Origin: Puteibacter caeruleilacunae
GTDB taxonomy: Bacteria > Bacteroidota > Bacteroidia > Bacteroidales > Prolixibacteraceae
Length of the DNA stretch: 64,000 bases
Direction of reading: 5' to 3'
Assembly: GCA_005217565.1 (NCBI GenBank)
Contig: SJCO01000005.1
Span: 372,001 to 436,000 of the forward strand
Made by a program: the position numbers and the translations under genes. A model generated the notes under the pieces. The model was not told the origin of the DNA and did not search any database. It worked only from the letters and a program-made list of their open reading frames with translations. Below are positions 29,795 through 60,082 of the stretch, piece by piece; within the stretch, counting starts at the first letter, position 1; each line of letters begins with the position of its first letter.

Positions 29795-30133
29795 CTAGAA
29801 CATCTCCAATTGCTGCGCTACAGGAGGTTTTTCTTTTTCCTTCTGTGCCTGGAAGAGTTCCATATTCCCAAATTGCTTGTCTGTAACCTTTAGTATGCCA
29901 ATATGACCATATTGGGGGAGAGCCATTTTCACCCGTTTAATATGCACTTCGGCGTTTTCACGACTAGGACAGTGTCGTAAATAAATTGAAAACTGGAACA
30001 TGGTAAAACCATCGTTAATTAATTCTTTACGGAACTTAGCTGCAGCCTTTCGTTGGCGCTTGCTATCGGTGGGTAAATCAAAAAATACCATTATCCACAT
30101 GGTTCTATATTGATTTAGTGCATCATGTTTCAT
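29795..30133 (-). CDS. cas2: CRISPR-associated endonuclease Cas2
   Basis: A 112-residue Cas2 starting [20 protein letters not shown]. The ferredoxin-like fold opens with [18 protein letters not shown], where the Asp after FF is the conserved active-site residue, and continues with [13 protein letters not shown] and [18 protein letters not shown]. It forms the Cas1-Cas2 integration complex that inserts spacers. The frame is open 16 codons upstream, but Cas2 homology begins at this ATG, which overlaps the end of cas1 by 11 nt. Confidence 0.92.
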
Positions 30134-31025: not shown

Positions 31026-31037
31026 AGGCAATTGGTG

Positions 31038-34000: not shown

Positions 34001-35708
34001 TTTTTAAAGCGAATTTAGTTAATGCGGACTCAAATTCTTTTTGATTGGTAATTGAATAAATAATATGCCAAAGATGCATTTCCATATCTTTGGTCAAAGT
34101 AATATCAGAACCAGATGGCTTTACCTTTTTAAAACGATTCAAAAACATGGATCTTGTCTCGTTGCATGCTATTTTTTTGTCCTCAGGGTAGTTCCACCGA
34201 TAATCTTTAGGTGTTAATTTGTAAAACTTAAGCAATGTTTTTTGATCTATATCTTTTCGATCATTTAGAAAATCAAAAAGATTTACAATATCATTCTCTG
34301 AGGTTAGATAGTTCGGTGTTATATCTGCATTAACTAAGGTTTGTTTATCAGTTTGCTTTGTTCTTTTAAGTATTTTTAGATTCTGAATAAATTGCCAAAG
34401 ACGAAATTCTTGGAAATATGGATTCGATTTAGAGATACATTTTATGTGCTGTGTCTCTTTCTTTCCATCTTTTATGAAAGATCGTTCTTCATAAGGACAA
34501 TTTGCTATTGTTGATTTTTTACTTTTTAGAGGGCGTTGGTAAAATAAAATATCTTTAACTAGAAGAAAGATAAAGTCTTTGTTCTTAATGTTATTGCGGT
34601 GTTTGGTGTTGTGGGTATATAATTCATTTATACATTCAGTGTATAACAGTTTACTTTGAAGTTCAGGATGGAATTTCAATTGCGTTTTTAGAATTGATAC
34701 AAGCTCTTGTTCATAGTATTCACGATCAACCGTTGTTATAAGACGACCATTGATTTTTTGAGCTGGTTTTTCAAGTAAGGTATCATAAATATATTCACCA
34801 ATGGTTTTTTGACAAGAAACAATATCACTCTCTGTTTTCTTTTTTATAGCTATCCAATCTTCTTTTGAGTTAACAGCGCGAAAAGATCTTTTGATCTGTT
34901 GATTCTTATCCATTTGGGGAGTGCCATCCTTATTAAGTGTTGTAGTGATGATGAACTCTTTAGTTTTTCCAATCCAGTTTTGTAGCGATTCTTTGCTTTG
35001 TCTTTTATAAATTAAGCCATTTTCTAAAATAACATTATACCATGTACCTTTGGTATTTGTTTCATCAGTTGATTGAACATCTGTTACTTTTAAACAGTAA
35101 TACTCCTCAAGTTTGTTTTGATCAGAAGTGTTAACTTCTCCTCGCATTTGGTGATATCCTCTTTTCTTGTTAAAATTAAGTAGGATCCATGCAAGTTCCT
35201 CTTTACGTATTTTTTCAGTCAAGGCTTTTTTTCGAAGATAATATAATGTCCAGTCATACGGAACATTGTTCTGAATTCCATTGTTTTTAAACTCGTCTAA
35301 CATTTCTATGTAGGAATCCATAAATAGGAATTCATACTTACCTTGACGACCTTTCTTATAGTTTAGTTTAACTTCAATTCCACTTTTAAATTGACCTAAA
35401 CGCTTTTTAAAATCTATAGCATTGTCATAGTGTTGGGGGAGGAATTTGATAATGTGTAGGACTCGATGAAGCCGTTCTCTTCTTTGATGGTGCCTTTCAT
35501 ATAGTCTCCGGGTACCTCTATGTCTAGTGCGTTCTGCTGTTTGTGATATTGATTGTCCCGAACCAAACTTATCGAGAGCTTCTTTAGACATTGGAATTAT
35601 TCTAACTCCAAGATCAATTATTTTTCCTTGCTTTGTGTCAAAATCATGTTCAATTAAAGCCCAACCAATAGAATTGGTTCCTAAATCCAGTCCTAAAACT
35701 TTTTTCAT
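31038..35708 (-). CDS. cas9: Cas9 endonuclease, large type II-C
   Basis: A 1,556-residue Cas9. RuvC-I is MKKVLGLDLGTNSIGWAL with the catalytic Asp at residue 8. An Arg-rich bridge helix follows (TRHRGTRRLYERHHQRRERL, about 60-80). RuvC-II is FFDEIHVELGREMKN (about 744). The HNH domain has YQIEHIIPQSRYFDNSLQNK (about 873). RuvC-III is DHRHHALDALVVACI (about 1,065). All catalytic residues are present, so it should cut both strands under crRNA:tracrRNA guidance. It is longer than the compact Neisseria/Campylobacter II-C enzymes but in the size class known for Bacteroidota. No csn2 or cas4 is present, so the locus is type II-C. The tracrRNA promoter begins just upstream on the opposite strand. 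Confidence 0.97.
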   Translation of the reverse strand: MKKVLGLDLGTNSIGWALIEHDFDTKQGKIIDLGVRIIPMSKEALDKFGSGQSISQTAERTRHRGTRRLYERHHQRRERLHRVLHIIKFLPQHYDNAIDFKKRLGQFKSGIEVKLNYKKGRQGKYEFLFMDSYIEMLDEFKNNGIQNNVPYDWTLYYLRKKALTEKIRKEELAWILLNFNKKRGYHQMRGEVNTSDQNKLEEYYCLKVTDVQSTDETNTKGTWYNVILENGLIYKRQSKESLQNWIGKTKEFIITTTLNKDGTPQMDKNQQIKRSFRAVNSKEDWIAIKKKTESDIVSCQKTIGEYIYDTLLEKPAQKINGRLITTVDREYYEQELVSILKTQLKFHPELQSKLLYTECINELYTHNTKHRNNIKNKDFIFLLVKDILFYQRPLKSKKSTIANCPYEERSFIKDGKKETQHIKCISKSNPYFQEFRLWQFIQNLKILKRTKQTDKQTLVNADITPNYLTSENDIVNLFDFLNDRKDIDQKTLLKFYKLTPKDYRWNYPEDKKIACNETRSMFLNRFKKVKPSGSDITLTKDMEMHLWHIIYSITNQKEFESALTKFALKNNIDKLQFVDAFNNVPPLKGEYASYSEKAIKRLLPLMRIGKYWAKENIDPRTRSNINNILQRLKTISFSEQKINEVSDDEINSRSLKNLIDLSSIEDYKGLRVHQACYSIYGRYSEIGQIAKWESPKAIQMFLDKFKQHSLRNPIVEQIVTETLRVVKEIWECYGNGEKNFFDEIHVELGREMKNSKEKRSRISQLNNNNEITNQRIKALLKELKEDPEVTDEVRPFSNSQQEKLKIYEEGVWSNPSLKFKNNKEQEEILKIKRNSTPTRKELEKYKLWLQQGYFSPYTGKPISLSKLFSEKYQIEHIIPQSRYFDNSLQNKVICESAVNAIKDNKTAYEFIENYQNQKIDIGGGETVTILSLNSYVDLCKRNFSTLPKKLNHLLSKDTPEGFINRQLNDSRYISKYIKSLLGNIVREDNELEATAKKLIPITGAITAVMREDWGLNNKWNDIIAHRFKRLNKLRKTHDFGYQDNQFFRTTIPDELSKGFSKKRIDHRHHALDALVVACISPLHINYISALSNGSRNFTIEEKLRKKEKVCYNNPITGEPKNNTIAKEYLLPWKSFPIDAKNQLDKIIVSFKQNLRTINKSTNSYWSYKDEDGNLRFGKNGIPQKDKVKQTKGDNWAIRKSLHADTCHGAVQIKREKKNKVKLESCLANWELIIDMKIKSKVKSLLSIFDNDIHSIKKHLKKHPLIINNQVIQEVRVYELLDPKTTTATRVELGENFTKKNLESITDSSIKAILQNHLENYKDSKGSPNFKLAFNSDGIDSLNKNIKQLNNGKFHHPIYKVRIYETGKKFPIGESIVKSKKYVEAAKGTNLFFAIYWNEELQKRIYETVPLNEVIAHQKQTAHYPAGEKTPIAIKHDMGQFLFTISPNDLVYVPSDCEIDNPDSVDFANLSKEQIRRIYKMVKASKNECYFIRFDIASLIHPYSATKKFGELGSQNKLQTTMCPDSVKIVDRCWKLNVNRLGKIVSIKKQHTIKQYN

Positions 35709-39936: not shown

Positions 39937-40554
39937 TTAACGACCAGCTTTACGATTAATGTTTTGTTTATAAACCAGTTGCTTGAATTGATCCATTGGA
40001 AATGCCTCGCCCGGATCCAACTTTCTGTCGGGACTTATCTCTGAATGTCCAACTACTTTACTGATGTGATAGTGATTCGTAATCTGCCATGTAACTTCTT
40101 TTGCCATAGCTAACTGAACAGGAGTGTAGCGATGCCAAAAACTACGATGACCGGTATTCGGATCTTCTTTTATAAACACATCTTTCGAATCAACCACTTT
40201 ATTATGCCAATTGTAATAACGGTTATTTTCGAAGATTAATTTGCCCTGGTTAACTAGCTCTATTCCAATGGAAAAGTGGTTTAATTCATGTAAATTGTCG
40301 AGCTCGCTCTTGCCTGCATGCCAGGCCTCAATATTGAACGGCACCGTTTGGTATACTTCACCATTTCTTCCGATAATAACATGGGCAGATGCATTTACGC
40401 CAGGCAATGTGAGGTATTTAACGGCCTTTAGAGCGTTGTTATTGGCCGTATAATGTAGTACTAATGCAATATGCTTACGAATTTTCTGCGTGTTTTTCGG
40501 GCACGCATATTGCGTAATACAGTCGCCTTGTAATCGATGATCTTTAATGTACAT
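39937..40554 (-). CDS. N-acetylmuramoyl-L-alanine amidase (Amidase_2 / AmpD fold)
   Basis: A 205-residue zinc amidase. Ligand residues appear in ALVLHYTAN (first His, about residue 34) and VVGHSEISPDRKLDPG (second His and the Asp/Lys pair, about 170). SAHVIIGRNGEVYQTVPF is the typical core. It cleaves the bond between MurNAc and the peptide stem. There is no signal peptide, so it is either cytoplasmic or released with help, as for phage endolysins. In Bacteroidota such amidases often accompany accessory clusters with small holin-like membrane proteins, and one is encoded on the other strand at 43,896. Confidence 0.88.
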   Translation of the reverse strand: MYIKDHRLQGDCITQYACPKNTQKIRKHIALVLHYTANNNALKAVKYLTLPGVNASAHVIIGRNGEVYQTVPFNIEAWHAGKSELDNLHELNHFSIGIELVNQGKLIFENNRYYNWHNKVVDSKDVFIKEDPNTGHRSFWHRYTPVQLAMAKEVTWQITNHYHISKVVGHSEISPDRKLDPGEAFPMDQFKQLVYKQNINRKAGR

Positions 40555-40789
40555 TTCTCAACATTTAATCGTTCGTAATATTAGTGCCTGGAAAATGTTG
40601 AATATCGTCTTGCTGTTATAGTATTCAAGTTCATAGGGAAAGGAATATTTCATCCAATTGCTACCGCCATTTGCCCATCTAATGGCGAACAGAACAAAAA
40701 GATGAATCCTTTTTTAAAGCAAGGAGAGGGGAGTTAGTGGTGGTATTCCTGTTCGTTTGGTAAGTACAACTCCCCAATCCTTTGCGTCC

Positions 40790-41164
40790 CTAAACACCCC
40801 TACTTGCTTCTTCTTTTATTCTTTCAATCAATAGACTCTTTTCGTATAATAACACACTGGCAAATTTAGTGCAAGGTATGCCTAGCAATTTGCATGCCCT
40901 TTCTGCGGCGGTAACTCTGATCTTTAATTGATCAGCAATTGCGTAATTTGAGATAAAGTCAGTAAAACTTTCTTTATTCTCCTGATCCTTCTGGTGCTTG
41001 ATGTAATCGCTACAAACTATCTGCTGTTCTACTAACACAACCAGCTGAGCTTTCATTTCAGCTTTCTCCTTCTCAAGCTCAGTTTGTTTCTCTTCTAATA
41101 TTGCTTGCCTTTTAATTAGGTCAGCAATAATCTCTTCATTTGTTTGCTTTTCAAATGATTTCAT
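40790..41164 (-). CDS. Coiled-coil protein with possible C-terminal DNA-binding helix pair
   Basis: A 124-residue protein starting MKSFEKQTNEE. Residues about 15-65 are a strong coiled coil rich in Glu, Lys and Gln (RQAILEEKQTELEKEKAEMK). The C-terminal 45 residues (RVTAAERACKLLGIPCTKFA) look like a helix-turn-helix. The frame is open 20 codons further, but that part is Cys-rich and unlikely. Function unknown. The gap from 41,165 to 41,530 shows no gene and only poly-T/poly-A tracts. Confidence 0.5.
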   Translation of the reverse strand: MKSFEKQTNEEIIADLIKRQAILEEKQTELEKEKAEMKAQLVVLVEQQIVCSDYIKHQKDQENKESFTDFISNYAIADQLKIRVTAAERACKLLGIPCTKFASVLLYEKSLLIERIKEEASRGV

Positions 41165-41530
41165 AATCAAATTTTTATATAATTTTACAAAATCACAGCA
41201 GTTGCTACAAAAATGCTTTAACACATTAATCGCAGCTGTTGCGTTATTATTTTTACGATTAGTATCAGGGGGACTTTTCCATCATCTAAAATGCCCTTCA
41301 ACCAACCGATGGTAATTGACAGACTCACTGTCTTAAATCCGGTACGAAAATACTACTTTCCGCTGGCGAGGACAAAATCCTTAGCTTAGGTGTGAATTCA
41401 GCCAATCTTCTGTAATGCCTGTAAAATCAATGGGTGCAGCAGATTGATATAGTTTTATCAAAAAACCGCACCATTGAGTATCAGTCGATTATACAGAAGC
41501 TGAGCTGTAACTGTTTTTTTTGACGGTTTT

Positions 41531-42628
41531 TTAGCTAATTTCCAACTCTCTTTGAGCCAACACACTTTTAATAATAGAGTGTGAGCTATTTTCATGTAAA
41601 TAATGGTCAAAGCGGTACTTATTCTTCATCCAGGGGAATAGGGTCTGTGGGTAAATGGCTTTATAACTGTTTACTATTCTTATAAAATCATCTATTACCT
41701 CATAAACGAACAGCACAACTGATTGTAATTCGATGTCGGCTTTTTTAGCTATATCTCTCTTTTTTTTCTCTGCAAAGTCCTTTCCCTTAGGGAAATGGTG
41801 ATGAAAAAGAATATAAAGTTCGCCAAGCCAAAGAGCACATTCATCAATAGGGCGTTCTTGTAGTTGTGTGATTATACTCGAAACTGAAGGTATTGCTTTT
41901 AGTCCTAAACGTTTTAACAGTTTTTTGATGAACTTTGTAGGAATGGACTGTTCCCTTGGAGAAACTTTTTGCAATATTATCGCCTTTGTGAAAAACAGCC
42001 CTAAACCATAGGCCACAATATCGCGATGGCATTCTCCTTTTTTAAATTTTACGTCTTCCGATACTTCTTCTTTAATCGCGTCCTTAATCTCTTCCGTAAC
42101 CTCTTTCTTAATCTTTTTCATAACCTCTTCCGGAACCTCTTCCGCAATCTTCTGCTGAACTTCTTCGATCCATTTAGCAATTGATTTTATCTTGGCTAGT
42201 ATTAGCTCAACCTGACTGAAAAAGGTGTTGAAAAAGCCCTCAATCTCCTCCTTTACGTGCTCCGACTGGTTGATCAGGTATACTCGTTTACCTTTGTTAT
42301 TATAGAGGCGAAACTTGGCAGGGATGTGCGCTTCGTTGTTCTTTGTCCTTCTTCTGTGATTCAGCAGGAATGCGTAGATAAGCTCATGTTCCTTCTTGAT
42401 GATATTATTGGTAGGTGTTGCCCTTTTAGTGAATCCTTTTATCTCCTCATTTAATTTTGTGATGATAGATGTGTTCGGTTTTTTGCCATTGAGGGTTACC
42501 AAACAATAGTCTTCTTCATCAACCACAATCGTAAAGTGTGGAGAGGTAATGGCTTCATAAATAGCAGGTAATTTAGCTTTCATCATTTTCTTTTGTTGCT
42601 TCGTCTCTGCATTTTTCGTTGTGTCCAT
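41531..42628 (-). CDS. Unknown protein with charged helical midsection
   Basis: A 365-residue soluble protein that I do not recognise. Residues about 150-195 form a repetitive Glu/Lys helix (IAEEVPEEVMKKIKKEVTEE). The C-terminal 150 residues are hydrophobic-helical with LWLGELYILFHHHFPKG and FIRIVNSYKAIYPQTLFPWM. A basic N-terminal third contains LNHRRRTKNNEAH. No signal peptide. It lies next to the repeat-rich region and is transcribed away from the RT cassette. It could belong to that cassette. Confidence 0.5.
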   Translation of the reverse strand: MDTTKNAETKQQKKMMKAKLPAIYEAITSPHFTIVVDEEDYCLVTLNGKKPNTSIITKLNEEIKGFTKRATPTNNIIKKEHELIYAFLLNHRRRTKNNEAHIPAKFRLYNNKGKRVYLINQSEHVKEEIEGFFNTFFSQVELILAKIKSIAKWIEEVQQKIAEEVPEEVMKKIKKEVTEEIKDAIKEEVSEDVKFKKGECHRDIVAYGLGLFFTKAIILQKVSPREQSIPTKFIKKLLKRLGLKAIPSVSSIITQLQERPIDECALWLGELYILFHHHFPKGKDFAEKKKRDIAKKADIELQSVVLFVYEVIDDFIRIVNSYKAIYPQTLFPWMKNKYRFDHYLHENSSHSIIKSVLAQRELEIS

Positions 42629-43895
42629 AGTTAATCGATTTAAATTTGTTCTGCCGAAACAGATGATTAGTTTAAAATTGATTTTGGACTAAAGATTGAT
42701 GAACCGTCAATCGCCGTGCGGATGATCAGGCTAGGATAAGTGTATAACGAGCTTGCTATTGATGATGGAAATCGTCCCCCTGTTATTGCTCTGCTTTCGC
42801 CCCGCAAATTTATAATTTTTCATAATAAAATGAAACAGTATTTTACCCCTGGCTACCCTAAATTATTGTCTCCAGATTGCCATCTTAAAATCACGATATC
42901 AAAATTGCTATCTCTAGATTGCAATTCTCCTACTCTTCCTTACTAACCCCTTACTTTCCCTTATCAAAACCCCGTATTCTCTAATGTTGAGTAGTAGAAA
43001 GTAAGGCTTTGGTAAGAGTTTGACAAAAGTTTGAGAAAAGTTTGACATGAGATTGACAAAAGATTTAGGAGCCCTTGATTGGTGTCTGATAATTTATTTA
43101 TATGATATTTGTCATGAAATTAGCGTGTAAAAATGACCTCAAAATGGGGTGCTGGGAAAAAAAATAAAAAAAATTAAACTTTTTTTTGGGCTTCATAAAT
43201 CGAAAAATCGTGCACTTTTTTCACAATTTTGCTATCTGTGCCACTTTTTTGCACCTCATGGCACTTACCGGTCACTTACCCCGACTTTGAGAAATGACAA
43301 ATTTGTTTTAAACTTGCATCGTGAGGTTCTGATAACGATGCATCTCACAACTGAAACAAGCGTTCTTTATAGCAGAAATGCAAACTGTAAGTTATCCACC
43401 TTTGAGGAGAAGTTGATTGAATGATCACTTCAAATTTTCAATGCCTGGAAAATGGTCATGGTGATAATGTAATGTTATCAACGTGATTTTTTGATCTCAA
43501 TCAATGAGGCGACGGATGGTGGTTTACAAAAGAGCAATCGTTTAAGTTGACGATGCAAAGGGAAGCTCTCGACTCGAAAAACGAGAGTTGAATCTCAAAT
43601 TTTATCTCACAGCAGAGAATCGGCCGATTCCAGTTACTGTGATGGACATGTTGGTAAAGCCTGGATAGCAGGTCAAAATTAGTTCGCAGAACACAGGCGA
43701 CAAATGCACTGTTGTGGTTCTACCATCGTGGAAGTCGAGTAATCAGAATTTTAGTAGTACTGTGTTTGGCATATACTTTATGTCCTAACCCGTCGTGTCT
43801 AAATTTCTGGAAATTAAGTTATCATCTGGACCCCCAGGCGTTATGCCTGTTGGTCTTCTCGTCTGAGGATCCAGTAATCTTTAAATCAATGTATT
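42629..43895. other. Gene-free, repeat- and hairpin-rich 1.3-kb region
   Basis: No plausible gene; the short open frames have poor composition. It contains a 10-bp inverted repeat (CCTTACTTTC 42949-42958, GAAAGTAAGG 42997-43006), four 11-bp direct repeats (43017-43060), further repeats of GTGCACTTTTTT and GGCACTTACC (43,205-43,280), and from about 43,440 a GC-richer stretch with several hairpins, including the palindrome GAATCGGCCGATTC (43617-43630) nested in TCACAG/CTGTGA (43607-43642). It lies between divergent gene sets and probably holds promoters and perhaps a structured RNA. Confidence 0.6.
43017..43060 (+). repeat. Four head-to-tail 11-bp repeats
   Basis: AGTTTGACAAA, AGTTTGAGAAA, AGTTTGACATG and AGATTGACAAA follow without gaps, one per DNA turn. 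The arrangement is that of an iteron or cooperative binding site. Confidence 0.75.
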
Positions 43896-44117
43896 ATGAA
43901 GAATATTGGGAACTTTCTTATTGGAACGATGTCAACTTTAGGGGTCAATGCAGGCATCAGTAATATTGATACCGCATCAACCCTCCCTTCTTCTATTATC
44001 GATAGTGTGGAAGCACTAGTGAGTTTGGTAGGAGGGATACTATCTACTGTCGTGGTGGCGTGGCTCAAATCTAAGTTAGAGAAGAAGAGCAAGCGTCATA
44101 AACGCGATAAATCGTAA
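43896..44117 (+). CDS. Small holin-like membrane protein
   Basis: A 73-residue protein with one clear membrane helix (about residues 36-57, EALVSLVGGILSTVVVAWL) and a strongly basic C-terminus (KSKLEKKSKRHKRDKS), the layout of small phage holins and similar peptides. Its N-terminus is weakly hydrophobic. It starts the rightward gene series that continues with DUF6266 genes and the RT. Pairing with the amidase at 39,937 is an inference. Confidence 0.5.
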   Translation: MKNIGNFLIGTMSTLGVNAGISNIDTASTLPSSIIDSVEALVSLVGGILSTVVVAWLKSKLEKKSKRHKRDKS

Positions 44118-44206
44118 TTGTCAGATCTACTGTACTACAGTGAATTGTATTTGCTGGCAGTGAGATCAAAGTAAATCAATTTATAAACTTTTAAATTTTA
44201 GATGTC

Positions 44207-44842
44207 ATGGGAAAAATAGCTCAAGGCGCATTTGGAGGTGTATCCGGAACCGTGGGAAATCTTGTCGGATCGTCATGGAAAGGTATTGATTATTTTAGAA
44301 TCAAGGCCGATCATTATCATGATGCGCATACCGAACCTCAAGTTAACCAGAGAAATAGATTCAGTGGAATTCTTGGAATGTGTAGTTTACTACGCGAGGA
44401 AGTAATTAATCCAATTTGGAAGCATAAAGCCGTTCAGATGACTCCATCAAACTTGTTTACTCAAGTGAACATGCAGGCATTTGGCGATGATGGCAATGTT
44501 GGTGATTGGTCATTGTTGAAGTTGACTGTTGGTACTTTACCAATTCCTTTCAACATGAAAATTGCTGATAATCCAGATACTCCCAAAACAATTGATGTGA
44601 GTTGGAGTACTTCACAATTGTCAGGGAAGAAGCGAGAAGATGATCAATTGATGTTGATCCTTACCGATGGAAAAGGCGACTGGTGTATGATGACCACCTT
44701 AGAAGCCTACCGTAAAGATGAGGAAGCAAGTATCATGTTACCTTACGAACCAGGCATGACAGTGCATGTATATGCATTCTTTGCCAGTCCTAAGCTTGAT
44801 CGCTTCTCAGAAAGTTTCCATACCGAAGTGGTTTTGTCGTAG
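44207..44842 (+). CDS. DUF6266 family protein
   Basis: A 211-residue protein with the family N-terminus MGKIAQGAFGGVSGTVGNLV followed by GSSWKGIDYFRIKADHYHDA, then QRNRFSGILGMCSLLREEVI. The C-terminal half is beta-rich, with VTLPY-like and VHVYAFFASPKLDRFSES segments. DUF6266 proteins are common in Bacteroidota and uncharacterised. This is the only one of four tandem relatives that keeps the Gly-rich N-terminal motif; the next three share only the later part. Confidence 0.75.
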   Translation: MGKIAQGAFGGVSGTVGNLVGSSWKGIDYFRIKADHYHDAHTEPQVNQRNRFSGILGMCSLLREEVINPIWKHKAVQMTPSNLFTQVNMQAFGDDGNVGDWSLLKLTVGTLPIPFNMKIADNPDTPKTIDVSWSTSQLSGKKREDDQLMLILTDGKGDWCMMTTLEAYRKDEEASIMLPYEPGMTVHVYAFFASPKLDRFSESFHTEVVLS

Positions 44843-45067
44843 ACTGTTAATTCGCGGTGGCGATGTTCTAAACAACTAATTAATTGACCAAAATATTCAG
44901 GTTTTTACCAACTATTTATCACAGCATCAGAAACAATGTACCCTCAAGCATTACCAAAAATATTACTATTATTCTTCCTTGTACTAATCATCGAAGCAGT
45001 ATTTTGCTATACCTTAGCTTCCATACTATATACACCAAAGCACCAAACTTCGGCTAACACAGAGCGC

Positions 45068-45125
45068 AGCGAATCCTTGTTCCCTTTTCCATTTTCCAGT
45101 CTCCAACTGCATCCATGCAGTACCC
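45068..45125 (+). repeat. 58-bp perfect direct repeat, copy 1
   Basis: Begins AGCGAATCCTTGTTCCC and ends CATGCAGTACCC. An identical copy lies at 45263-45320. After each copy comes a diverged pyrimidine-rich tail made of CCTTTCAACCGTTTACC-type units. The whole 44,843-45,529 gap is built from these modules; an open frame runs through it but is judged non-coding. Confidence 0.85.
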
Positions 45126-45262
45126 CAGGCAACGTCACCATTCCACCTTTCAACCGTTTACCTTACAACCGTTCCTCTTTCACCATCATTGTTTCGCTTA
45201 CAGGTCTTACAGACGCTGAAAGGTGTCCTTGGCCAGTATTCCATATCTCCAACTCCCTTCGA

Positions 45263-45320
45263 AGCGAATCCTTGTTCCCTTTTCCATTTTCCAGTCTCCA
45301 ACTGCATCCATGCAGTACCC
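45263..45320 (+). repeat. 58-bp perfect direct repeat, copy 2
   Basis: Identical to copy 1 at 45068-45125. It is preceded by ATTCCATATCTCC and an imperfect copy of the ACGCTGAAAGGTGT element (about 45,200-45,235). Diverged relatives, inverted, follow the RT gene at 49,640-49,830. Confidence 0.85.
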
Positions 45321-45390
45321 ATCGCAACGTTACCGTTTTACCTTTCAACCGTTTACCTTTCAACCCTTTACCATTCTACCAGCTCCCATC

Positions 45391-45453
45391 TCTTTGCCCT
45401 ATGCCCTATGCTCTTTGCCCTATGCCCTATGCTCTTTGCCCCATGCACTATGC
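45391..45453 (+). repeat. Three 21-bp tandem repeats
   Basis: Each unit reads TCTTTGCCC followed by TATGCCCTATGC. The first two (45391-45411, 45412-45432) are identical and the third has two changes. They end the repeat block ahead of the second DUF6266-like gene. Confidence 0.85.
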
Positions 45454-45529
45454 CCTTTGCCCTGGTTCCCCTTTCAACCCTGTACCAACGACATTAACCG
45501 GTGCAACAGCACCACAAAATTCAAATATC

Positions 45530-46087
45530 ATGGCACATATGATGACATGTAAGCGACCTCCTTTAAAAGAGGTCAACGTCTCAGCATTAGAGGCATTCGA
45601 ATTCTCTCGTAAAGTAATGTTACCAAAAATCCTAACCGAGGAGATCATCAAACCATCGTGGGATAAGTGCGCAAAAGATGGCGACGGAGTACAAGCCTTC
45701 TTAGCACAAAACATAGGAGCATTTGGCTGGAATGGACAATTGGAGGACTTCCACAACTTAGTCCTCACCAATGGAACATTGCCACCACCTTACACCTACG
45801 ACATAGAAATGTCGGATGAGCCCGACGGTGAGAATGACGTATGTATTATGTGGTTCAACGAAGATATGAAAGAAGACGATGAAAGAATGGATGATGAGAT
45901 CTGCTTTGTAATCTTCTCCAGCGATTTGGTCTACTTACACACAGGTAATGGTAAAGGCCGAAAACGCAGGGATGAATACGTCAATGTAACCATTCCATTC
46001 GGAAGCAAAGATAAGCTCAAAGTATTTGCCTTCTTCCGCAGTAAAGATGGCTCAGATTATTCACTAGCATGGTATAAGGAGGTATAA
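45530..46087 (+). CDS. DUF6266-like protein lacking the N-terminal motif (paralog 2)
   Basis: A 185-residue protein from the ATG at 45530. It shares with its neighbours the pattern KVMLPKILTEEIIKPSWDKC, a LxNGTLPPP segment and the C-terminal LKVFAFFRSKDG. An open frame continues 198 codons upstream, through pyrimidine-rich repeats that also lack stops in other frames, so that extension is rejected. Its stop overlaps the next start (TAATG arrangement), so the two are translated together. Function unknown. Confidence 0.65.
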   Translation: MAHMMTCKRPPLKEVNVSALEAFEFSRKVMLPKILTEEIIKPSWDKCAKDGDGVQAFLAQNIGAFGWNGQLEDFHNLVLTNGTLPPPYTYDIEMSDEPDGENDVCIMWFNEDMKEDDERMDDEICFVIFSSDLVYLHTGNGKGRKRRDEYVNVTIPFGSKDKLKVFAFFRSKDGSDYSLAWYKEV

Positions 46088-46662
46088 TGATGGATTGTTT
46101 AGAAGTGCATTACCAACCATTTAAGTCAGGAAAAGAGTTTGAAAACTACGATACGAAAGAGATCGTAATATCTCAAAAAGTAAAACTTCCTGCATTATTT
46201 CACAATAAAGTTATAGCACCCATTTGGGATCTTGTAGCTGGCGAAGGCAAAGGAGCAGAACTGTTTGTAAAAGAAAATCTTGCTTTGTTTGATAAGGATA
46301 GTAAGATTACCGACTACTCCAAACTAAAACTGACTACCGGGGATCTGCATTTACCTGATCCTATTGCTTTTGATCAGGGATATATTGATGGCTTTGTCAT
46401 CTCCAGCGATTATGCTGATGAAAATTGTATCCTTATGGATAAGGAACCGGAAAGAAAACTCGACCGACTCTGTTATGTGCTTATAGTAGGCGATGAGATT
46501 TACGCTTGTCTCAGATATAAAATACCTCGACAGCATCAGGTTGCATTCCTGACTCATCCATTTGAAGAACCCGAGAATATGCATGTATTTGTGTTCTACT
46601 GCGATGAGGAAATGAAGCGTTTCTCGCCAGCACAGTATAAAAAACTGTATGAGAGTGATTAA
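46087..46662 (+). CDS. DUF6266-like protein (paralog 3)
   Basis: A 191-residue soluble protein starting MMDCLEVHYQPF. Core segments VKLPALFHNKVIAPIWDLVA, KLKLTTGDLHLPD, EPERKLDRLCYVLIVGDEIY and NMHVFVFYCDEEMKRFSPAQ recur in the next gene. The two are about half identical at residue level by eye. The start overlaps the stop of the preceding gene. No signal peptide, no known domain beyond the DUF6266 resemblance. Confidence 0.65.
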   Translation: MMDCLEVHYQPFKSGKEFENYDTKEIVISQKVKLPALFHNKVIAPIWDLVAGEGKGAELFVKENLALFDKDSKITDYSKLKLTTGDLHLPDPIAFDQGYIDGFVISSDYADENCILMDKEPERKLDRLCYVLIVGDEIYACLRYKIPRQHQVAFLTHPFEEPENMHVFVFYCDEEMKRFSPAQYKKLYESD

Positions 46663-46818
46663 GTAAAATAACACGCTTCCAAGTGCTCCACCTGCTAAAA
46701 TGAGATGTTGTAGCAACACCGCCAACGTCTACTAAGACCTGCGGCGTGTAATTGTAGCTACACCTTCTCAGTGCTTGACAGCGCCTGGGAGCGTGTCTAA
46801 TTGTAAATAGATAAAATC
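46663..46818. repeat. Cluster of extragenic imperfect palindromes
   Basis: Two or three copies of an element with ends AACACGCT and AGGTGTT are packed here: AACACGCTTCCAAGTGC near 46,671, an ACACCGCC...GCGGCGTGT unit at about 46,716-46,749, and an inverted copy at 46,754-46,790 ending GGGAGCGTGT. Relatives lie at about 45,200, 49,836-49,872 and 51,652-51,689. Confidence 0.6.
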
Positions 46819-47397
46819 ATGACAGATTTAACAACTAATGATCAGGAGTGTATTCTTAAACGAGAACTTTATCAGCGTGAAACAAGAGACGTGACTGTGC
46901 AACGGACAGTAAAGATTAATGCAATGCTTCACGATACTGTTATTGCTCCTATATGGGATTTGGTAGCTGGTGACGGCAAAGGAGCAGAAATGTTTGTGCA
47001 AGAAAATATTGCTGCTTTTGGTGAGGATGGCAACATAAAGGATTACTCAAGATTGAAGTTGACTATTGGCGATCTTTACATGCCAAGTTATATTTTGTTA
47101 GAGGAGGATCCTTGTGGTGCTGGTGGTGTTCTTTTCTTTACCGATGCTGATGAGGAGGATGAAGCCTTAAGAAAGAAGGAACCAGAGCGAAAGCTCGACC
47201 GACTCTGCTATGTGATTATTCAAGATGGTGAGATTTACGCAAGACTGTATGATGACACTAGCAGGGATGATTTGGCACATTATCTGATTCATTCGATTGA
47301 TGTTCCGAAGAATATGCATGTATTTGTGTTCTTCTGTGATAAGGAGATGAAACATTTCTCTCCATCAGAATATCAAATGCTGTTTGTTGAAGAGTAA
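46819..47397 (+). CDS. DUF6266-like protein (paralog 4)
   Basis: A 192-residue close relative of the preceding gene: VKINAMLHDTVIAPIWDLVA, EMFVQENIAAFGEDGNIKDY, EPERKLDRLCYVIIQDGEIY, NMHVFVFFCDKEMKHFSPSE. The region between (PSYILLEEDPCGAGG) is diverged, so one loop seems to change faster than the core. It is separated from the third paralog by an extragenic repeat cluster. Function unknown. Confidence 0.65.
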   Translation: MTDLTTNDQECILKRELYQRETRDVTVQRTVKINAMLHDTVIAPIWDLVAGDGKGAEMFVQENIAAFGEDGNIKDYSRLKLTIGDLYMPSYILLEEDPCGAGGVLFFTDADEEDEALRKKEPERKLDRLCYVIIQDGEIYARLYDDTSRDDLAHYLIHSIDVPKNMHVFVFFCDKEMKHFSPSEYQMLFVEE

Positions 47398-47445
47398 ATC
47401 CGTTTTACCTTTCAACCTTTTACTGTTTAACCATAACGCAACACT

Positions 47446-47486
47446 CTATAGCGCCATTGATTGAATTTGATCAGTTTGCGCTATAG
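47446..47486 (+). repeat. 9-bp inverted repeat ahead of the DNA-binding gene
   Basis: CTATAGCGC (47446-47454) and GCGCTATAG (47478-47486) pair perfectly around 23 nt. It lies in the likely leader of the next gene and could be an operator or an RNA hairpin. It argues for the ATG at 47509 over an in-frame TTG at 47461. Confidence 0.65.
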
Positions 47487-47508
47487 TGATGCGTCTAAAT
47501 ATCAATTA

Positions 47509-48507
47509 ATGTACACCGTTCCCATTGACCTCTTACTTTATAGCCTGCGCAAGCGCAAGGTTAATCAGGTACGATTATACCTCTACCTGAAGTATATGGC
47601 CAGTGGGAACATTAAACTCACCAACGAGGTTATCGACGATATCTGTAGCAAGCTACACTGGTGTAAAAAGACATTCGAAAAACACCGTCAGTGGTTGCTG
47701 CGTAAGAAGTGGATCAGTTATAATAATAAGACCAAAAGCTTACATATTAAGGGATATAAACGAATAGCCTCAAAGTGGTATTGCAATCACAATCGTGGAG
47801 TGAAGTGTTGGATAGAATATCTAATCGATTTTAGAGCCTTTTGTTGTGGTGCTGTAATCGGGTGGGGTAGTATCTACATCAAACGCAAGAAGAGAGCTTC
47901 GAGGAAAACAAAAGGGGACCTCAATAAGGATGCTCATCATGCAAATGGGATGAATGAACTGCCCAACAAGTTACTAGCTCCTATCTTGGGACTACACTAT
48001 ACAACCGTAAGTAAATACCGCAGACTTGCTGAAAAACATGGATATCTTAATGTAAAACAGAATTACAAACCTTCCGATTGGCCTAAGGAGTTTTTAGCCG
48101 AAGTTAAAGAAGCTAACCCTGATAAAGCTGATCGTTTAAAGGTGCGTGGAGGGTTTATTGTTGAGCAATTGCCCAGTACAATTATTACTGAACTTACAAT
48201 CAAGAGAAAGCGCCTGTTTAAGCCTAAAAAGGAGATTAGAAGATGGCTTACATGTAAAGAGGTTGCTGCTGCTAAAGCTGCAGGTAAGACTGTGGGTAGT
48301 GAGGCTTCTTCATGCACGACCGCTATGGCTAAAGCTGCAGGCAAGACTGCAATTGATGTGGCTGCTGAGGTTGTATGCAAGTCAATGGTGAGTGACGAGA
48401 GCAAGAGCTCTATGGCGAAAACTCCAAAGGCAGCAAAGGTGAGCAACAGTACAATCAAAATAACAAAGCATAATGAACCAGGAGGCCAAAGTCTAGTAAT
48501 CCAATAA
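47509..48507 (+). CDS. Putative DNA-binding protein with two winged-helix segments and Ala/Lys-rich tail
   Basis: A 332-residue basic protein. Residues about 35-90 (KLTNEVIDDICSKLHWCKKT then FEKHRQWLLRKKWISY) and 155-190 (KLLAPILGLHYTTVSKYRRL then AEKHGYLNV) look like winged helix-turn-helix units, as in replication initiator or phage helix-turn-helix proteins. The last 100 residues contain repeats of AKAAGKT and many Lys, Ala and Ser, resembling histone-like tails. It lies directly upstream of the RT, 113 nt apart, and both may be one transcript. It may bind the repeats nearby. An in-frame TTG at 47461 is the alternative start. Confidence 0.6.
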   Translation: MYTVPIDLLLYSLRKRKVNQVRLYLYLKYMASGNIKLTNEVIDDICSKLHWCKKTFEKHRQWLLRKKWISYNNKTKSLHIKGYKRIASKWYCNHNRGVKCWIEYLIDFRAFCCGAVIGWGSIYIKRKKRASRKTKGDLNKDAHHANGMNELPNKLLAPILGLHYTTVSKYRRLAEKHGYLNVKQNYKPSDWPKEFLAEVKEANPDKADRLKVRGGFIVEQLPSTIITELTIKRKRLFKPKKEIRRWLTCKEVAAAKAAGKTVGSEASSCTTAMAKAAGKTAIDVAAEVVCKSMVSDESKSSMAKTPKAAKVSNSTIKITKHNEPGGQSLVIQ

Positions 48508-48620
48508 TCTGAAGATCCAGTAATCCAAGAATCGGCTAAGCTTAGATTCCTGATTTGGAAAAAACTTCAACCGTGTAACTAGGGTCTCCCCTACAGAGAG
48601 CTTAACCAAGAAATAGAATT

Positions 48621-49631
48621 ATGAAATATATTACAGAATTAGTTAAAAAAGAGAGAAAGTTGATTAAAGCTAACAACCATAGAACACTATCCGGCCTGCA
48701 CAATTTTATCGATGAAGACCTACTTAATTTCTGTCTTACAGGAATAAAACAGAATACACCTGTATCAGCATTAGATCGTTCTTTAATCAACTTCAACAAG
48801 TATAAGTCTATATCCATACCCTACCTGCTTAAGGAACTGAATGAAGGTTTATACCATCCCGTAGCTGTGAAGGCGAAACAGGTAATCGTAAAGAACAAGT
48901 TAAGGGATGTGGGCAAGTTGCCGTTAGAGGATGAGTTGTTACAGAAGGCAGTGAAGGTGATACTGGAGCCTGTGTATGAGCAGGTGTTCTTCAACTTCAA
49001 TGTTGGGTATCGGAGGTGTAATTATCAGAATGATGCTCACTCGTGGTTGCATCATCAAGTGACCTATGGTGGTTACCGTTACCTGATCAAGGCAGACCTG
49101 AAAGATTACTTTAACTTGATTGATCATGAATACATGATGGAGTTCCTGAAGAAGAAGATTGCAGATAATGTTATCCTGCATTTAGTGGAAGAGTGGCTAG
49201 CTGCAGTGAGTGCTAACCACAGTAAGCCCAAAGAGCGCCCACAAGGACTTCTAACTGGTTCTCCTCTCTCTCCTATGCTAAGTAATATTTACTTGCACTA
49301 CGTGCTCGATAATTGGTTTGTAAGCAGAATTCAACCACTCCTAAACAACACTAGCTTCATGGTTCGTTATTGTGATGATTTCATCATGGGTTTCAACAAC
49401 GCCAATGATGCACGTAGGGTGTACCGTACACTCTTCAAACGTCTGGCTAAGTATTACCTATACCTGAACCAAAGAAAGAGCTTTATGGTGTGGCTAGGTG
49501 ATGAAAACGATAATCCCAACTATGGCAGCGACTTTAAACATCATACCTTCGAATTCCTGAAGCATCACTATTGGTTGGACAAGATGGAAAATGGTCATGA
49601 TGTGTTGAGATTTAAAGTGGTGGGAAGGTAG
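48621..49631 (+). CDS. Reverse transcriptase, group-II-like, without maturase or endonuclease domain
   Basis: A 336-residue RT. Motifs in order: KLRDVGKLPLEDELLQKAVK (RT2a region, about 95-115), GYRRCNYQNDAHSWLHHQV (RT2), YLIKADLKDYFNLIDHEYMM (RT3, with the first catalytic Asp), RPQGLLTGSPLSPMLSNIYL (RT4), MVRYCDDFIMGF (RT5, YCDD active site), and KRLAKYYLYLNQRKSFMVWL (RT6/7). The QG-x-PLSPMLSNIYL pattern is that of group II intron RTs, not of DGR or retron RTs. The protein ends soon after RT7, so thumb/maturase and HNH domains are missing or minimal. No intron domain V is visible downstream. A free-standing RT of unknown purpose; it could be a defence or mobile-element enzyme. Confidence 0.85.
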   Translation: MKYITELVKKERKLIKANNHRTLSGLHNFIDEDLLNFCLTGIKQNTPVSALDRSLINFNKYKSISIPYLLKELNEGLYHPVAVKAKQVIVKNKLRDVGKLPLEDELLQKAVKVILEPVYEQVFFNFNVGYRRCNYQNDAHSWLHHQVTYGGYRYLIKADLKDYFNLIDHEYMMEFLKKKIADNVILHLVEEWLAAVSANHSKPKERPQGLLTGSPLSPMLSNIYLHYVLDNWFVSRIQPLLNNTSFMVRYCDDFIMGFNNANDARRVYRTLFKRLAKYYLYLNQRKSFMVWLGDENDNPNYGSDFKHHTFEFLKHHYWLDKMENGHDVLRFKVVGR

Positions 49632-49880
49632 CTTCGCCAGGAAGACCGGAAACCGGAGAATGGAAACAGGATTCGCCTCGATGAATGGAATGGTGGTAAA
49701 ATGGTAGAAAGGAAGGTGGAAAGGTGAGAGTGCGAAGGATAGTACCCAGAGGAATAGGAAACCGGATAATCGGGAAAGTGAGAAAGCATCGCTTCGATGA
49801 GGGTAGGAGATATGGAATTGAGGCCTGAAACACATGCCAGCGTCGGTAGCAGCTGGAAGCGTGTTGAATAGAATAACGGT
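49632..49880 (-). repeat. Inverted, diverged copies of the pyrimidine-rich repeat module
   Basis: On the - strand this region reads GCTTCCAGCTGC followed by CGACGCTGGCATGTGTT, then ATTCCATATCTCC, then CGAAGCGATGCTTTC with a pyrimidine tail, then CGAGGCGAATCCTGTTTCC with a second tail. The order matches the + strand block at 45,200-45,330. So the DUF6266/RT cassette is bracketed, loosely, by inverted modules. No gene is present. Confidence 0.65.
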
Positions 49881-49938
49881 AGTGATCACGATATCCCACG
49901 TTTTGCTAACGCTTCTTTGCGATTATTATTTTATTAAA

Positions 49939-51872: not shown

Positions 51873-51964
51873 AATTCATCTCAATTTTATGCTAGGTTCT
51901 GTTCATATTTCGACTTTTCTTTATTAAATTAGCCAATATTTGACAAGTCATTAACTGGATGCAT

Positions 51965-52267
51965 ATGTATTTTGGAAAACGAATCAAGGAACTTCGCGAG
52001 GAACGGGAATTACTTCAGAGGCAATTAGCTGCCAGTCTGGAGATTGATACTCCAATGTATAGTAAAATTGAACGTGGAGATCGAAGGGCAAAACGAGAGC
52101 ATGTTCTGAAATTGGCTGAGCTGTTAGATACGGATCCCAATGAACTGTTGATGCTTTGGTTGGCCGGTCAAGTGTATGAGATTATCAAAGATGAGGAATT
52201 GGGACTACGAGCCATTGACTATATTAAAGAAAGCAGTATTTTATCTTCAAAATCTGGAAAACTATGA
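51965..52267 (+). CDS. XRE-family transcriptional regulator of the Septu operon
   Basis: A 100-residue regulator beginning MYFGKRIKELREERELLQRQ; an ATG two codons earlier is also possible. The helix-turn-helix is LAASLEIDTPMYSKIERGDR. The C-terminal part (IIKDEELGLRAIDYIKES) is typical of XRE proteins that precede restriction or defence genes in Bacteroidota. Its stop overlaps the ATPase start by 4 nt, so the two are coupled and it probably controls expression of the module. Confidence 0.85.
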   Translation: MYFGKRIKELREERELLQRQLAASLEIDTPMYSKIERGDRRAKREHVLKLAELLDTDPNELLMLWLAGQVYEIIKDEELGLRAIDYIKESSILSSKSGKL

Positions 52268-53559
52268 TTATTAATAAATTGACGCTACAAAATTTTCGAG
52301 GATATAGCGAAATTGAAATTCCATTGCATGAAGGATTTAACCTGATTATAGGAGACAATGGGAGTGGGAAAACATCATTGCTTGAGGCTTTGACTATTTC
52401 AATGGGATCTTTGTTTTTAGGGATAAGAAATACTGACTCAAGACATATCTTATCAAAAGATATGCATATCAGAAGTTTTGAAGATAGTGAAGAGTACGGC
52501 GGTAGTGTGGTTGTAATGGCTGAGGGTATCGTTAATGGAGAGCAGATAAGCTGGAGTCGTGAATTGACGAGTATAAATGGTAGAACATTGGTACGAGGAG
52601 CTCATGCCATAAAAAGTATTGGAGCTAATTATGATGCATTAATTCGACAAGGTGAGACTGTAAATTTACCTGTCTTGGCTTACTATGCAACCGGACGATT
52701 GTTTGATGAGGCTCGAGATACCAAAGAGAAGGAAAGTAAGTATCCCGAAATAGCATCCAGATTAAGAGCTTACAATCAGTGTTTAAAGGCTAAAATGACC
52801 TTTAAGAAATTTATTAAATGGTTTAGAGGAAAGCAATTGGCAAGGGCAACCAAAGGAACTGATGATATACGATTTGATCTGGTAAGAAATGCAATCATCA
52901 ATAATGTACCAGATTGTGAGAATATCTACTATGAATTGGATCCAGATAAACCTAATAAAGGACTTAAAGTAGAACTTGCAGATGGGCGCACACTTCCATT
53001 TTCATATTTAAGTGATGGTACCAGAAACTTTTTAGCATTGATTGCTGATATCGCCTATAAGTGTGTTACTTTAAATCCACATTTGAAAGAAAACGCTTTA
53101 TTAGAGACTACGGGTATTGTGCTTATTGATGAGCTAGATTTGCACTTACACCCTGAGTGGCAAAAAAGGATCATTAAAGGCCTGAGAGATACATTTCCGA
53201 AAGTGCAGTTTGTTTGTACTACCCATTCTCCATTTCTGATTCAGGAAACTGAGGCTAATCAGTTGATTAAACTAAAAGGTAGTGAGATTGAATATGTTGG
53301 TCAGGCTAACAACCAGAGTATTGAGGATATTGCTGAGGAGCATCAGGATGTAGAGAATCCCCAATGGAGTAAAAAGCGACAGATTATGTATGAGGTGGCT
53401 AAGGAATATTATAGCGCCGTTAAAGAAGGAACAGATACTCCAGAGTTAAAGGAAAAGTTTGATGAGGCGATGAAACCTTTTGCTAACGATACAGCGTTAT
53501 ATGCTGTGATTGACCAGGAGAAAATAAAAGCAGAGTACAAGAAAAGATTAAGTAAATAA
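52264..53559 (+). CDS. ptuA: Septu-type defence ATPase PtuA
   Basis: A 431-residue AAA/SMC-like ATPase of the OLD/RecF group. It has the N-terminal LTLQNFRGYSEIEIPLHEGF and Walker A GDNGSGKTSLLEA (about residues 31-43), a signature SYLSDGTRNFLALIADIA (about 240), Walker B GIVLIDELDLHLHPEWQKR (about 283) and VCTTHSPFLIQE (about 318). The C-terminal 100 residues (RQIMYEVAKEYYSAVKEGTD) are the part that in Septu contacts the nuclease. Its stop and the HNH start share a base (TAATG). The pair matches two-gene Septu antiphage systems, in which the ATPase controls an HNH nuclease. Confidence 0.78.
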   Translation: MIINKLTLQNFRGYSEIEIPLHEGFNLIIGDNGSGKTSLLEALTISMGSLFLGIRNTDSRHILSKDMHIRSFEDSEEYGGSVVVMAEGIVNGEQISWSRELTSINGRTLVRGAHAIKSIGANYDALIRQGETVNLPVLAYYATGRLFDEARDTKEKESKYPEIASRLRAYNQCLKAKMTFKKFIKWFRGKQLARATKGTDDIRFDLVRNAIINNVPDCENIYYELDPDKPNKGLKVELADGRTLPFSYLSDGTRNFLALIADIAYKCVTLNPHLKENALLETTGIVLIDELDLHLHPEWQKRIIKGLRDTFPKVQFVCTTHSPFLIQETEANQLIKLKGSEIEYVGQANNQSIEDIAEEHQDVENPQWSKKRQIMYEVAKEYYSAVKEGTDTPELKEKFDEAMKPFANDTALYAVIDQEKIKAEYKKRLSK

Positions 53560-54227
53560 TGCGACCAGTTAATAAAGGAGATTCCCCAAGAGATTATATC
53601 GATTACGGACAAGCACGGCATGATTTAGCTGAGCGTATCGGCTATTATTGTTCGTACTGTGAAATGAAAGTTTATCAAGGTATTGAGGTTGAGCATATTC
53701 TGCCGGTAAATCAAGGTGGGGACGAATTAGAGTGGGATAATTTTCTGTTGTCATGTAAATATTGCAATACCCGAAAAAGTGATCACAATGATAACTTATC
53801 CGATTATGTTTGGCCAGATATCGATAATACGGATCTGGTTTTTGAATATTCTGAGGCGAGTGTTGTTACACCACAGAAAGGTTTATCGTTGGAATTAAAC
53901 CAGAAGGCTCAGCAGACGATTGATTTGATGAAGCTAGATCTGTTTGCGGATAATACGACAGAAGCAGATACCAGATGGAGGTCAAGGAAAGAAGCATGGG
54001 ATTTGGCTCGGAAAAGCTATAATTCATGGGATGAAGCTCCTATTGTTGAGATGGCTCGTGTGATTGCCAGAACATCTTTGAGTGGTCACTATTCCATTTG
54101 GATGACTGTGTTTAGAGATGTGCCTGAGGTTTTAAAAGAGATTGACGAGGTATATCGATGTAAAGGATTATATAAAGAGTATGATGAGGATGGTAATAGG
54201 ATTGTAAGACCTGGAGGGTGTATATGA
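53559..54227 (+). CDS. ptuB: Septu-type HNH endonuclease PtuB
   Basis: A 222-residue HNH nuclease. The zinc-binding and catalytic part is at residues about 25-75: GYYCSYCEMKVYQGIEVEHI with LPVNQGGDELEWDNFLLSC and KYCNTRKSDHN, so two Cys-x2-Cys pairs and the conserved His of the EHI motif. The C-terminal 120 residues are helical. It overlaps the ATPase stop by one base. It should cleave nucleic acid when the ATPase is triggered. A small membrane protein gene follows 18 nt later. Confidence 0.8.
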   Translation: MRPVNKGDSPRDYIDYGQARHDLAERIGYYCSYCEMKVYQGIEVEHILPVNQGGDELEWDNFLLSCKYCNTRKSDHNDNLSDYVWPDIDNTDLVFEYSEASVVTPQKGLSLELNQKAQQTIDLMKLDLFADNTTEADTRWRSRKEAWDLARKSYNSWDEAPIVEMARVIARTSLSGHYSIWMTVFRDVPEVLKEIDEVYRCKGLYKEYDEDGNRIVRPGGCI

Positions 54228-59457: not shown

Positions 59458-60082
59458 AAAACGCCCCATTAAGCAAAAACTAAAGTATGCAGCAGTGGTT
59501 GAAGGGCAATGTGAGTATTGGTATATTCAAATGCTTAAAAGGAATGAGCGTATTGTGAGTGTTGATATAATGCCGGAAATACCTCAAAAGAAAAAGCTTA
59601 TAGATCAATATGAAAAGGTAAAAGAGCTGGCTAGGCATTATGATCTGGTATTTTGGATTATTGATTTTGATGTTATATTAAAAGAGGATAAAGAAAGTAA
59701 AGTATCTAATAGCCCATTGCAGAATTTCAGACAGTATTATGAGAATCTTGAAAAGAAATATGACAATGTAAAGGTTATAATTAACAATCCCTGTATTGAA
59801 TATTGGTTTCTTTTACATTTTGTATCGACTTCCAGGTATTTTGATTGCTGTTCTAAATCAATTAAGGAGTTAGAAAAGTATATTTCCAAGTATAAAAAGA
59901 CGCAGGGCTTTTTTACGAAACAGGACAATGATATTTATTTGAGACTAAAACCATATCTTGATACCGCAATTAAAAATGCAAAGAAGGTTGAGAATTTTGA
60001 TTCTAAGAATGTGTTTGTAGGTATATGCCAGATGAATCGTTTTTTTGAGTCAGGTGAATTAAAAAAGATAACAGAGAAATAG
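59444..60082 (+). CDS. rloB: RloB family protein
   Basis: A 212-residue protein starting MRRTRKRPIKQKLKYAAVVE. Conserved positions are the Glu in VVEGQCEYWYIQMLKR, the Asp pair in LVFWIIDFDVILKED, and NNPCIEYWFLLHFVST. The E...D-x-D layout is reminiscent of TOPRIM-type nucleases, so it may be the effector of the upstream ATPase. RloB was first noted in restriction-linked loci of Campylobacter. The ATG at 59444 is used because homology starts there; an ATG eight codons earlier is in frame. Confidence 0.8.
   Translation: MRRTRKRPIKQKLKYAAVVEGQCEYWYIQMLKRNERIVSVDIMPEIPQKKKLIDQYEKVKELARHYDLVFWIIDFDVILKEDKESKVSNSPLQNFRQYYENLEKKYDNVKVIINNPCIEYWFLLHFVSTSRYFDCCSKSIKELEKYISKYKKTQGFFTKQDNDIYLRLKPYLDTAIKNAKKVENFDSKNVFVGICQMNRFFESGELKKITEK

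Follow-up and report, generated by a model that had tools for sequence, protein, structure and literature searches.

The window analysed here, a stretch of 64,000 nucleotides of the Puteibacter caeruleilacunae genome (Bacteroidales, Prolixibacteraceae; assembly GCA_005217565.1, contig SJCO01000005.1, positions 372,001 to 436,000), encodes a compact reverse transcriptase (RT) directly behind a winged-helix (wH) protein. Judged by its sequence, the RT is most plausibly a domesticated group II intron RT, derived from the Bacteroidota D1-D4-6 type, because of its position in the tree, the intron RNA found in its relatives and the absence of such RNA from the window. It is well supported that the RT represents a six-copy, selected, group II-derived lineage that has lost ribozyme and thumb, has exchanged the glutamine of motif 4 for threonine and is encoded behind a wH gene. 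Our best explanation as a whole, held with rather less than even confidence, is that this domesticated RT is non-mobile, forms an apparent operon with the wH gene and probably performs a new cellular job.

Contig C150, to which the window belongs, is one of the 220 contigs of an 8.0 Mb assembly whose relatives are Bacteroidales, among them a Prolixibacteraceae assembly of the same family. A first-pass annotation had listed a holin-like gene, four DUF6266-type genes, a DNA-binding protein and an RT at 43896-49631, and these genes are indeed present, all on the + strand.

Origin of the reverse transcriptase

The window RT matches RVT_1 (E 8e-23), and among named profiles it scores best with TIGR04416, the group II intron RT/maturase (161.8 bits, short of the cut-off of 300). 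When 84,980 species genomes were scanned, only more distant relatives came to light, with full-length matches at most 40% identical; 80 outside RT loci were kept. All 11 of the nearest relatives tested for intron RNA have D1-D4-6 RNA (RF02005) before the open reading frame (ORF), and 7 of the 11 have domain V (RF00029) above cut-off after it. With these 11 as positive control, the window gave no Rfam intron RNA at the gathering threshold or at E<=5, which agrees with the earlier statement that no intron is visible. In the rest of the genome, RF00029 is found at contig C212 only and weakly at C1, and at none of the RT cassettes; a D1-D4-6 search of the whole genome gave no match, but is a weak test since no control genome scored. 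The parent intron was not found in the same genome, whose other RT matches are 28-30% identical.

In a phylogenetic tree, the six cassette RTs of this genome form one clade (support 100/100) on a long stem (1.36). This clade adjoins six intron-type RTs, five of Bacteroidota and one of Balneolota (94/84), and a 100/100 branch separates that group, together with 13 other close intron-type RTs, from the other 40 group II RTs. The first-pass annotation had proposed such a phylogeny as a check: the RT indeed groups with known intron RTs of one type, yet no domain V lies nearby. The cassette clade is known from one assembly. A further 392 Bacteroidales genomes contain intron-type RTs only, the cassette clade appearing in none of them, and plasmid and phage records hold RTs at 25-34% identity only, of group II or retron type where annotated. 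A phage origin was considered and rejected, as a relative of the RT or of the wH protein was found in no viral contig.

Domain structure and active site

The RT gene (48621..49631, + strand) encodes 336 amino acids that comprise fingers and palm only. It retains the catalytic Asp159 (D159) and, as first annotated, has a YCDD box and is free of a maturase or endonuclease domain; the C-terminus lies directly past motif 7. All six diverged copies have the catalytic aspartates 159, 252 and 253, their active-site box reads YCDD, FCDD or YADD, and the palm is the best conserved part of the protein. All six copies stop after motif 7, while most outside relatives run about 100 residues further. An AlphaFold model of the RT (pLDDT 86, pTM 0.87) shows fingers and palm and ends in strands after motif 7; structurally it is most similar to group II RTs, thumbless crystal constructs included, and the structure of the group II-like RT G2L4 is among the better matches. 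By sequence and predicted fold, the cassette RT has lost the thumb (domain X). RTs have been described as having a thumb or a thumb surrogate in common (PMC12337344).

The second departure concerns motif 4, which the first-pass annotation had called group II-like. Intron relatives read QGxxxSP or a close variant, always with glutamine (77/77); the cassette RTs instead read TGxxxSP, with threonine in all six (T212 in the window copy, TGSPLSP). The position corresponds to Gln151 of HIV-1 RT, which affects discrimination between deoxynucleoside triphosphates (dNTPs) and fidelity, and RTs of diversity-generating retroelements (DGRs) have Ile, Val or Leu there (PMC3521204).

Variable, Gly/Cys-rich low-complexity inserts occupy two loops of the RT, one before motif 4 and one before motif 7, and differ between paralogs. 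The genes that carry them are found at L014 6220-7245, L082 994-2115, L012 8256-9290 and L013 8347-9423.

Six cassettes in one genome

The genome has six copies of the RT: that of the window, C14a (C14:997-2115), C14b (C14:219185-220183) and those on contigs C42, C53 and C101; contig ends lie near three of these loci. The other copies are 48-87% identical to the window copy. Pairwise ratios of nonsynonymous to synonymous substitution rates (dN/dS) are 0.09-0.28 for the RT and 0.10-0.35 for the wH gene; in the most distant copy, synonymous sites are saturated or nearly so. As all six diverged copies are intact and their dN/dS is far below 1, chance is excluded, and the RT and wH genes are functional genes, not relics.

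A wH gene lies directly upstream of the RT in six of six loci. The C14a, C14b and C101 cassettes additionally contain genes for DUF6266, holin and amidase; C42 and C53 hold only a leader, the wH gene and the RT, plus a remnant of the holin start, and have no DUF6266 gene. Two further wH copies (C100 and C194) have DUF6266 genes nearby but no RT, C100 also having holin and amidase genes. From the gene content of the six RT loci it follows that wH-RT is the most constant unit; DUF6266, holin and amidase are an older block that the RT joined. A special partnership between DUF6266 genes and the RT, as first proposed, is not supported. DUF6266 is adjacent to the RT in four of the six loci and missing from the C42 and C53 cassettes, and among 140 genomes of the family 35 have it, one of them being the window's own; the 34 others are without a cassette RT. 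The co-occurrence that the first-pass annotation had wished to see checked is thus frequent inside this genome and is not found in other genomes.

Divergence among the cassettes is mosaic. Between the window and C42 the leader is 92% identical but the wH DNA 78%, and between C42 and C53 dS is 0.22 in the wH gene but 0.57 in the RT; sister cassettes therefore appear to recombine. Six cassettes in one genome with such mosaics (window-C42 and C42-C53) would also fit an RT that aids the copying or conversion of island cassettes, with cDNA of a cassette transcript recombining with sister copies and so spreading and homogenising them. However, ordinary homologous recombination and duplication account for the mosaics, two wH cassette loci have no RT, and target-site duplications or poly-A-like signs were not seen; we regard this explanation as quite unlikely.

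In two of the six cassettes (L011 3917-7483 and L014 8309-9970), genes of the Rhs-repeat type are oriented towards the 3' end of the RT.

Conserved noncoding elements

A noncoding element of 58 nt (48557..48614, + strand) precedes the RT start in all six loci and is 84% identical between the window and C101 despite saturated synonymous sites. Within it, 23 nt match the beginning of the ORF in the parental introns (19/23 with L099 and 17/23 with L090; P<0.002 against shuffles for 4 of 16 introns tested), the ancestral ATG being gone. The RTs of known group II introns bind their RNA close to their own start codon, and by analogy the element may be a retained RT-binding site. A hairpin in this element was rejected, with z-scores near 0 or positive.

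The main rival to an active RT starts from the same element. It holds that the protein is a non-catalytic, RNA-binding regulator which has inherited the start-codon RNA binding of its ancestors and controls the wH-RT operon or the DUF6266/lysis-like block. Such a regulator could do without the motif 4 glutamine, replaced in six copies, and without the thumb, and would explain why a sequence resembling an intron ORF start is conserved in six loci. The three invariant aspartates, in a palm that is the best conserved part of six diverged copies, would nevertheless be needless for a pure binding protein, and we consider the regulator unlikely.

A second conserved noncoding region, the leader (42905-43895, or 43286..43895 when delimited more narrowly; + strand), is common to four of the six RT loci and about 80% identical between the window and C14a, although the RT dS there is 1.19. 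Its end (43735..43892, + strand; about 158-159 nt) is predicted to fold into two hairpins (z -4.03) and has four strong matches in the genome, all in RT cassettes. These four sequences retain every predicted pair, and only 3 of 21 variable columns fall within stems (Fisher P 1e-4), a comparison biased in favour of the structure, which was predicted from the same sequences. No two-sided changes occur among the four, so the structure rests on folding energy and on the placement of substitutions. The leader has no Rfam match.

Short repeats are shared by the leader end and the gap between the wH gene and the RT. The 18-mer TCTGAGGATCCAGTAATC lies at the leader end (43862..43879, + strand), and the 18-mer TCTGAAGATCCAGTAATC, which is also found at the leader end, lies between the wH gene and the RT (48508..48525, + strand). 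The leader-end 18-mer TCTGARGATCCAGTAATC recurs in the wH-RT gap of the window and of C14a, and the genome has six exact or one-mismatch copies, each of them in an RT cassette.

An intergenic repeat of 134 bp with inverted repeats is present at 42905-43038 of the window and at about 18 other places in the genome. It was tried and rejected as a cassette boundary, as most copies examined adjoin unrelated genes.

The winged-helix protein and the role of the cassette

The wH gene (47509..48507, + strand) has sister copies in the other cassettes and gives weak matches to MarR and helix-turn-helix (HTH) profiles. The winged-helix gene with a tail, here basic and Ala/Lys-rich, was correctly annotated, but its likely start is the ATG at 47509, which is common to the sister copies, and not 47461. 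In other genomes of the family, wH homologs are found in blocks that consist of a tyrosine integrase, RteC or a stand-in gene, an HTH gene, sometimes an amidase and then the wH gene (L176, L179, L181). The genes behind it, by sequence reading, are Vsr, methylase and GHKL-ATPase-like genes in L176, methylase and GHKL-like genes in L179 and a VirE-like gene in L178.

The window cassette is flanked by a type II CRISPR-Cas locus (29795-35708) on one side and by Septu (51959-54227) and AbiL (58147-60082) systems on the other. Behind the C14a cassette lie a methylase gene and an McrBC-like pair, McrBC being assigned by sequence reading. A defence role is plausible but weakly supported. As to the make-up of these systems, the CRISPR-Cas locus (- strand) has Cas2-, Cas1- and Cas9-like genes, with a Cas9 of 1556 amino acids, and lies about 8 kb from the cassette holin gene; the Septu system behind the cassette region (+ strand) comprises HTH, PtuA and PtuB genes, and the AbiL system (+ strand) is an AbiLi/AbiLii-like (RloA/RloB-like) pair.

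We think it fairly probable that the RT is active and acts together with the wH protein. The RT would still copy RNA into cDNA. Because RTs need a thumb or a thumb surrogate, either the wH protein or a second RT subunit would supply the grip on the nucleic acid; the wH protein is the obvious candidate, as it is the only constant neighbour of the RT. The RNA recognised would be encoded in the cassette itself, namely the pre-RT element and, in those loci that have it, the structured leader. More weakly, we suggest that the product might serve defence or the upkeep of the island block, because genes of the wH type are characteristic of integrase-RteC-HTH islands whose cargo is defence-like and because defence systems adjoin two of the six RT loci. 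A job in defence or island maintenance, with cassette RNA as template, is accordingly worth considering, though we stop short of calling it probable. Of the roles that the first-pass annotation had suggested for the system, defence agrees with the position of the window copy in a defence island and gene copying is possible, whereas diversification is not supported, no template repeat/variable repeat (TR/VR) pair having been found.

Several points weigh against this account. The Q-to-T change could mean that polymerase activity is reduced or lost, and four of the six RT loci show no recognised defence neighbour. The leader is absent from the RT loci C14b and C101 while the RT-less C194 retains part of it, so it may be a regulatory 5' untranslated region of the holin/DUF6266 operon and not a template of the RT.

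The cassettes might even represent a new two-protein class, in which an RT of group II descent, without a thumb and with its dNTP site rewired (Q to T), uses the wH protein as thumb surrogate and copies a dedicated cassette RNA in island defence loci; we find so complete a picture doubtful. The domesticated bacterial RTs studied so far (G2L4, DGR, defence-associated RT (DRT) and CRISPR-RT) each showed an unexpected use of cDNA synthesis. In the present case, the parent introns are identified, the losses (ribozyme, thumb, motif 4 glutamine) are sharp and there are six natural replicates under selection. The cassettes thereby make it testable how an intron RT can function, or be put to new use, once its thumb is gone and whether the thumb's role has passed to a neighbouring DNA-binding protein.

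DUF6266 genes and the rest of the block

The cassette is larger than 43896-49631, since the leader and a group of opposite-strand genes (39937-42628) recur in sister loci. The latter encode an N-acetylmuramoyl-L-alanine amidase (Amidase_2; 39937..40554, - strand) that recurs with the cassette, a 144-aa coiled-coil/HTH-like protein (40790..41224, - strand) that is the counterpart of the HTH gene in sister blocks, and a 365-aa helical protein (41531..42628, - strand) that has no Pfam match and is the positional counterpart of the RteC gene in L181. The holin-like protein (43896..44117, + strand; 73 aa with one likely membrane helix) recurs in sister cassettes and has weak PHROG matches.

Four DUF6266-type genes had been annotated, and in substance they are there. 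Gene 1 (44207..44842, + strand) is the only one to reach Pfam (PF19781, E 8e-20). Gene 2 (45530..46087), gene 3 (46087..46662) and gene 4 (46819..47397), all on the + strand, are diverged homologs of it (BLAST E 1e-11 to 1e-13) without the N-terminal G-rich motif. What has to be corrected is the start of gene 2, which is probably at 45530, with 44936-45529 being in-frame dispersed repeat DNA. A fold search with DUF6266 was abandoned, the model being too poor (pLDDT 61). Among 2.9 million viral contigs, one DUF6266 relative was found.

Dispersed low-complexity repeats of the types CCCTATGCTCTTTGCC, CCTTTCAACCGTTTACC and GAATCCTTGTTCCC occupy 44936-45529 and 49632-49900 of the window, and related DNA is found elsewhere in the genome. 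They lengthen open frames, among them the second DUF6266-like ORF at its N-terminal end. In a related genus, G042:C1 and G011:C1 (L212-L217) have many group II intron-type RTs and many DUF6266 genes; a few of these are no more than about 8 kb apart, possibly by chance.

Comparison with known systems

The closest known relatives of the cassette RT are the RTs of Bacteroidota D1-D4-6 introns (for example L090 from UBA4073, L099 from Anaerophaga and L102 from Marinilabilia rubra). They resemble it in fingers and palm (34-40% identity), fall in the neighbouring clade and have an ORF start that resembles the cassette's pre-RT element. Unlike them, the cassette RT has neither intron RNA nor domain X and thumb, reads TG for QG and has a constant wH partner. 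A mobile group II intron would have ribozyme RNA (domains I-VI) around the ORF as well as domain X/thumb, and the cassette has neither; a domesticated group II-like RT is what its place beside intron RTs in the tree, its lack of intron RNA and its frame under selection describe.

G2L4, which acts in DNA repair, is likewise a domesticated group II-derived RT without intron RNA and on a long stem branch (PMC12337344, PMC4244168). A role of the cassette RT in DNA repair or end joining would follow this precedent (PMC12337344), and G2L4 is among its better fold matches. Yet G2L4 has a thumb, which it uses in strand annealing and dimerisation, as well as YIDD and an RT3a plug, while the cassette RT has no thumb, reads YCDD and is encoded by several island copies instead of one housekeeping gene (PMC12337344, PMC4244168). 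A repair function therefore seems very unlikely. The CRISPR-associated G2L2/CRISPR-RT1 is, as in the cassette, a group II-like RT without a maturase domain (PMC4244168). In contrast to CRISPR-RTs, which are linked to the adaptation genes cas1/cas2, the cassette RT is not coupled to cas genes: CRISPR-Cas lies within about 8 kb, on the other strand, at the window copy only, and none is found at the other five copies in the regions read.

DGRs resemble the cassette in that their RT is compact, lacks a maturase domain and has lost the motif 4 glutamine, and they use an accessory nucleic-acid-binding protein, Avd. These likenesses, and the multi-copy paralogs nearby, could point to a diversity-generating system whose variable region lies elsewhere in the genome. 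As first annotated, however, there is no TR/VR pair: searches for adenine-biased pairs found none in the window or in seven sister regions and recovered 10/10 planted controls. In addition, motif 4 reads TGxxxSP and not (I/V/L)GxxxSQ (PMC3521204), and the RT falls in a different clade, that of intron RTs. We give this possibility hardly any credence.

DRT/unknown group (UG) RTs and retrons share with the cassette an RT, a possible structured noncoding RNA and a defence island. The first-pass annotation saw no match to retrons, DGRs or classical DRTs, and profile scores and tests agree. The best UG profiles of PADLOC, UG26 and UG4 (71 bits each), and Drt3a (47) score far below group II (162) and no UG partner domain is present; the RT lacks the VTG that marks retron RTs in region 7 and reaches 51 bits with the retron profile NF038233 against a cut-off of 235. 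Retron and DRT identities were rejected on these scores. No retron msr-msd was recognised; the structured leader lies at the operon start, in four of six loci, and has no Rfam match. In layout, the cassette resembles the integrase-RteC-HTH-wH islands of Bacteroidales (L176, L179, L181), which have the same wH family, an HTH gene and, in L181, an amidase, in the same order; these islands differ in having an integrase and no RT, and their cargo behind the wH gene is methylase, Vsr, GHKL ATPase or similar.

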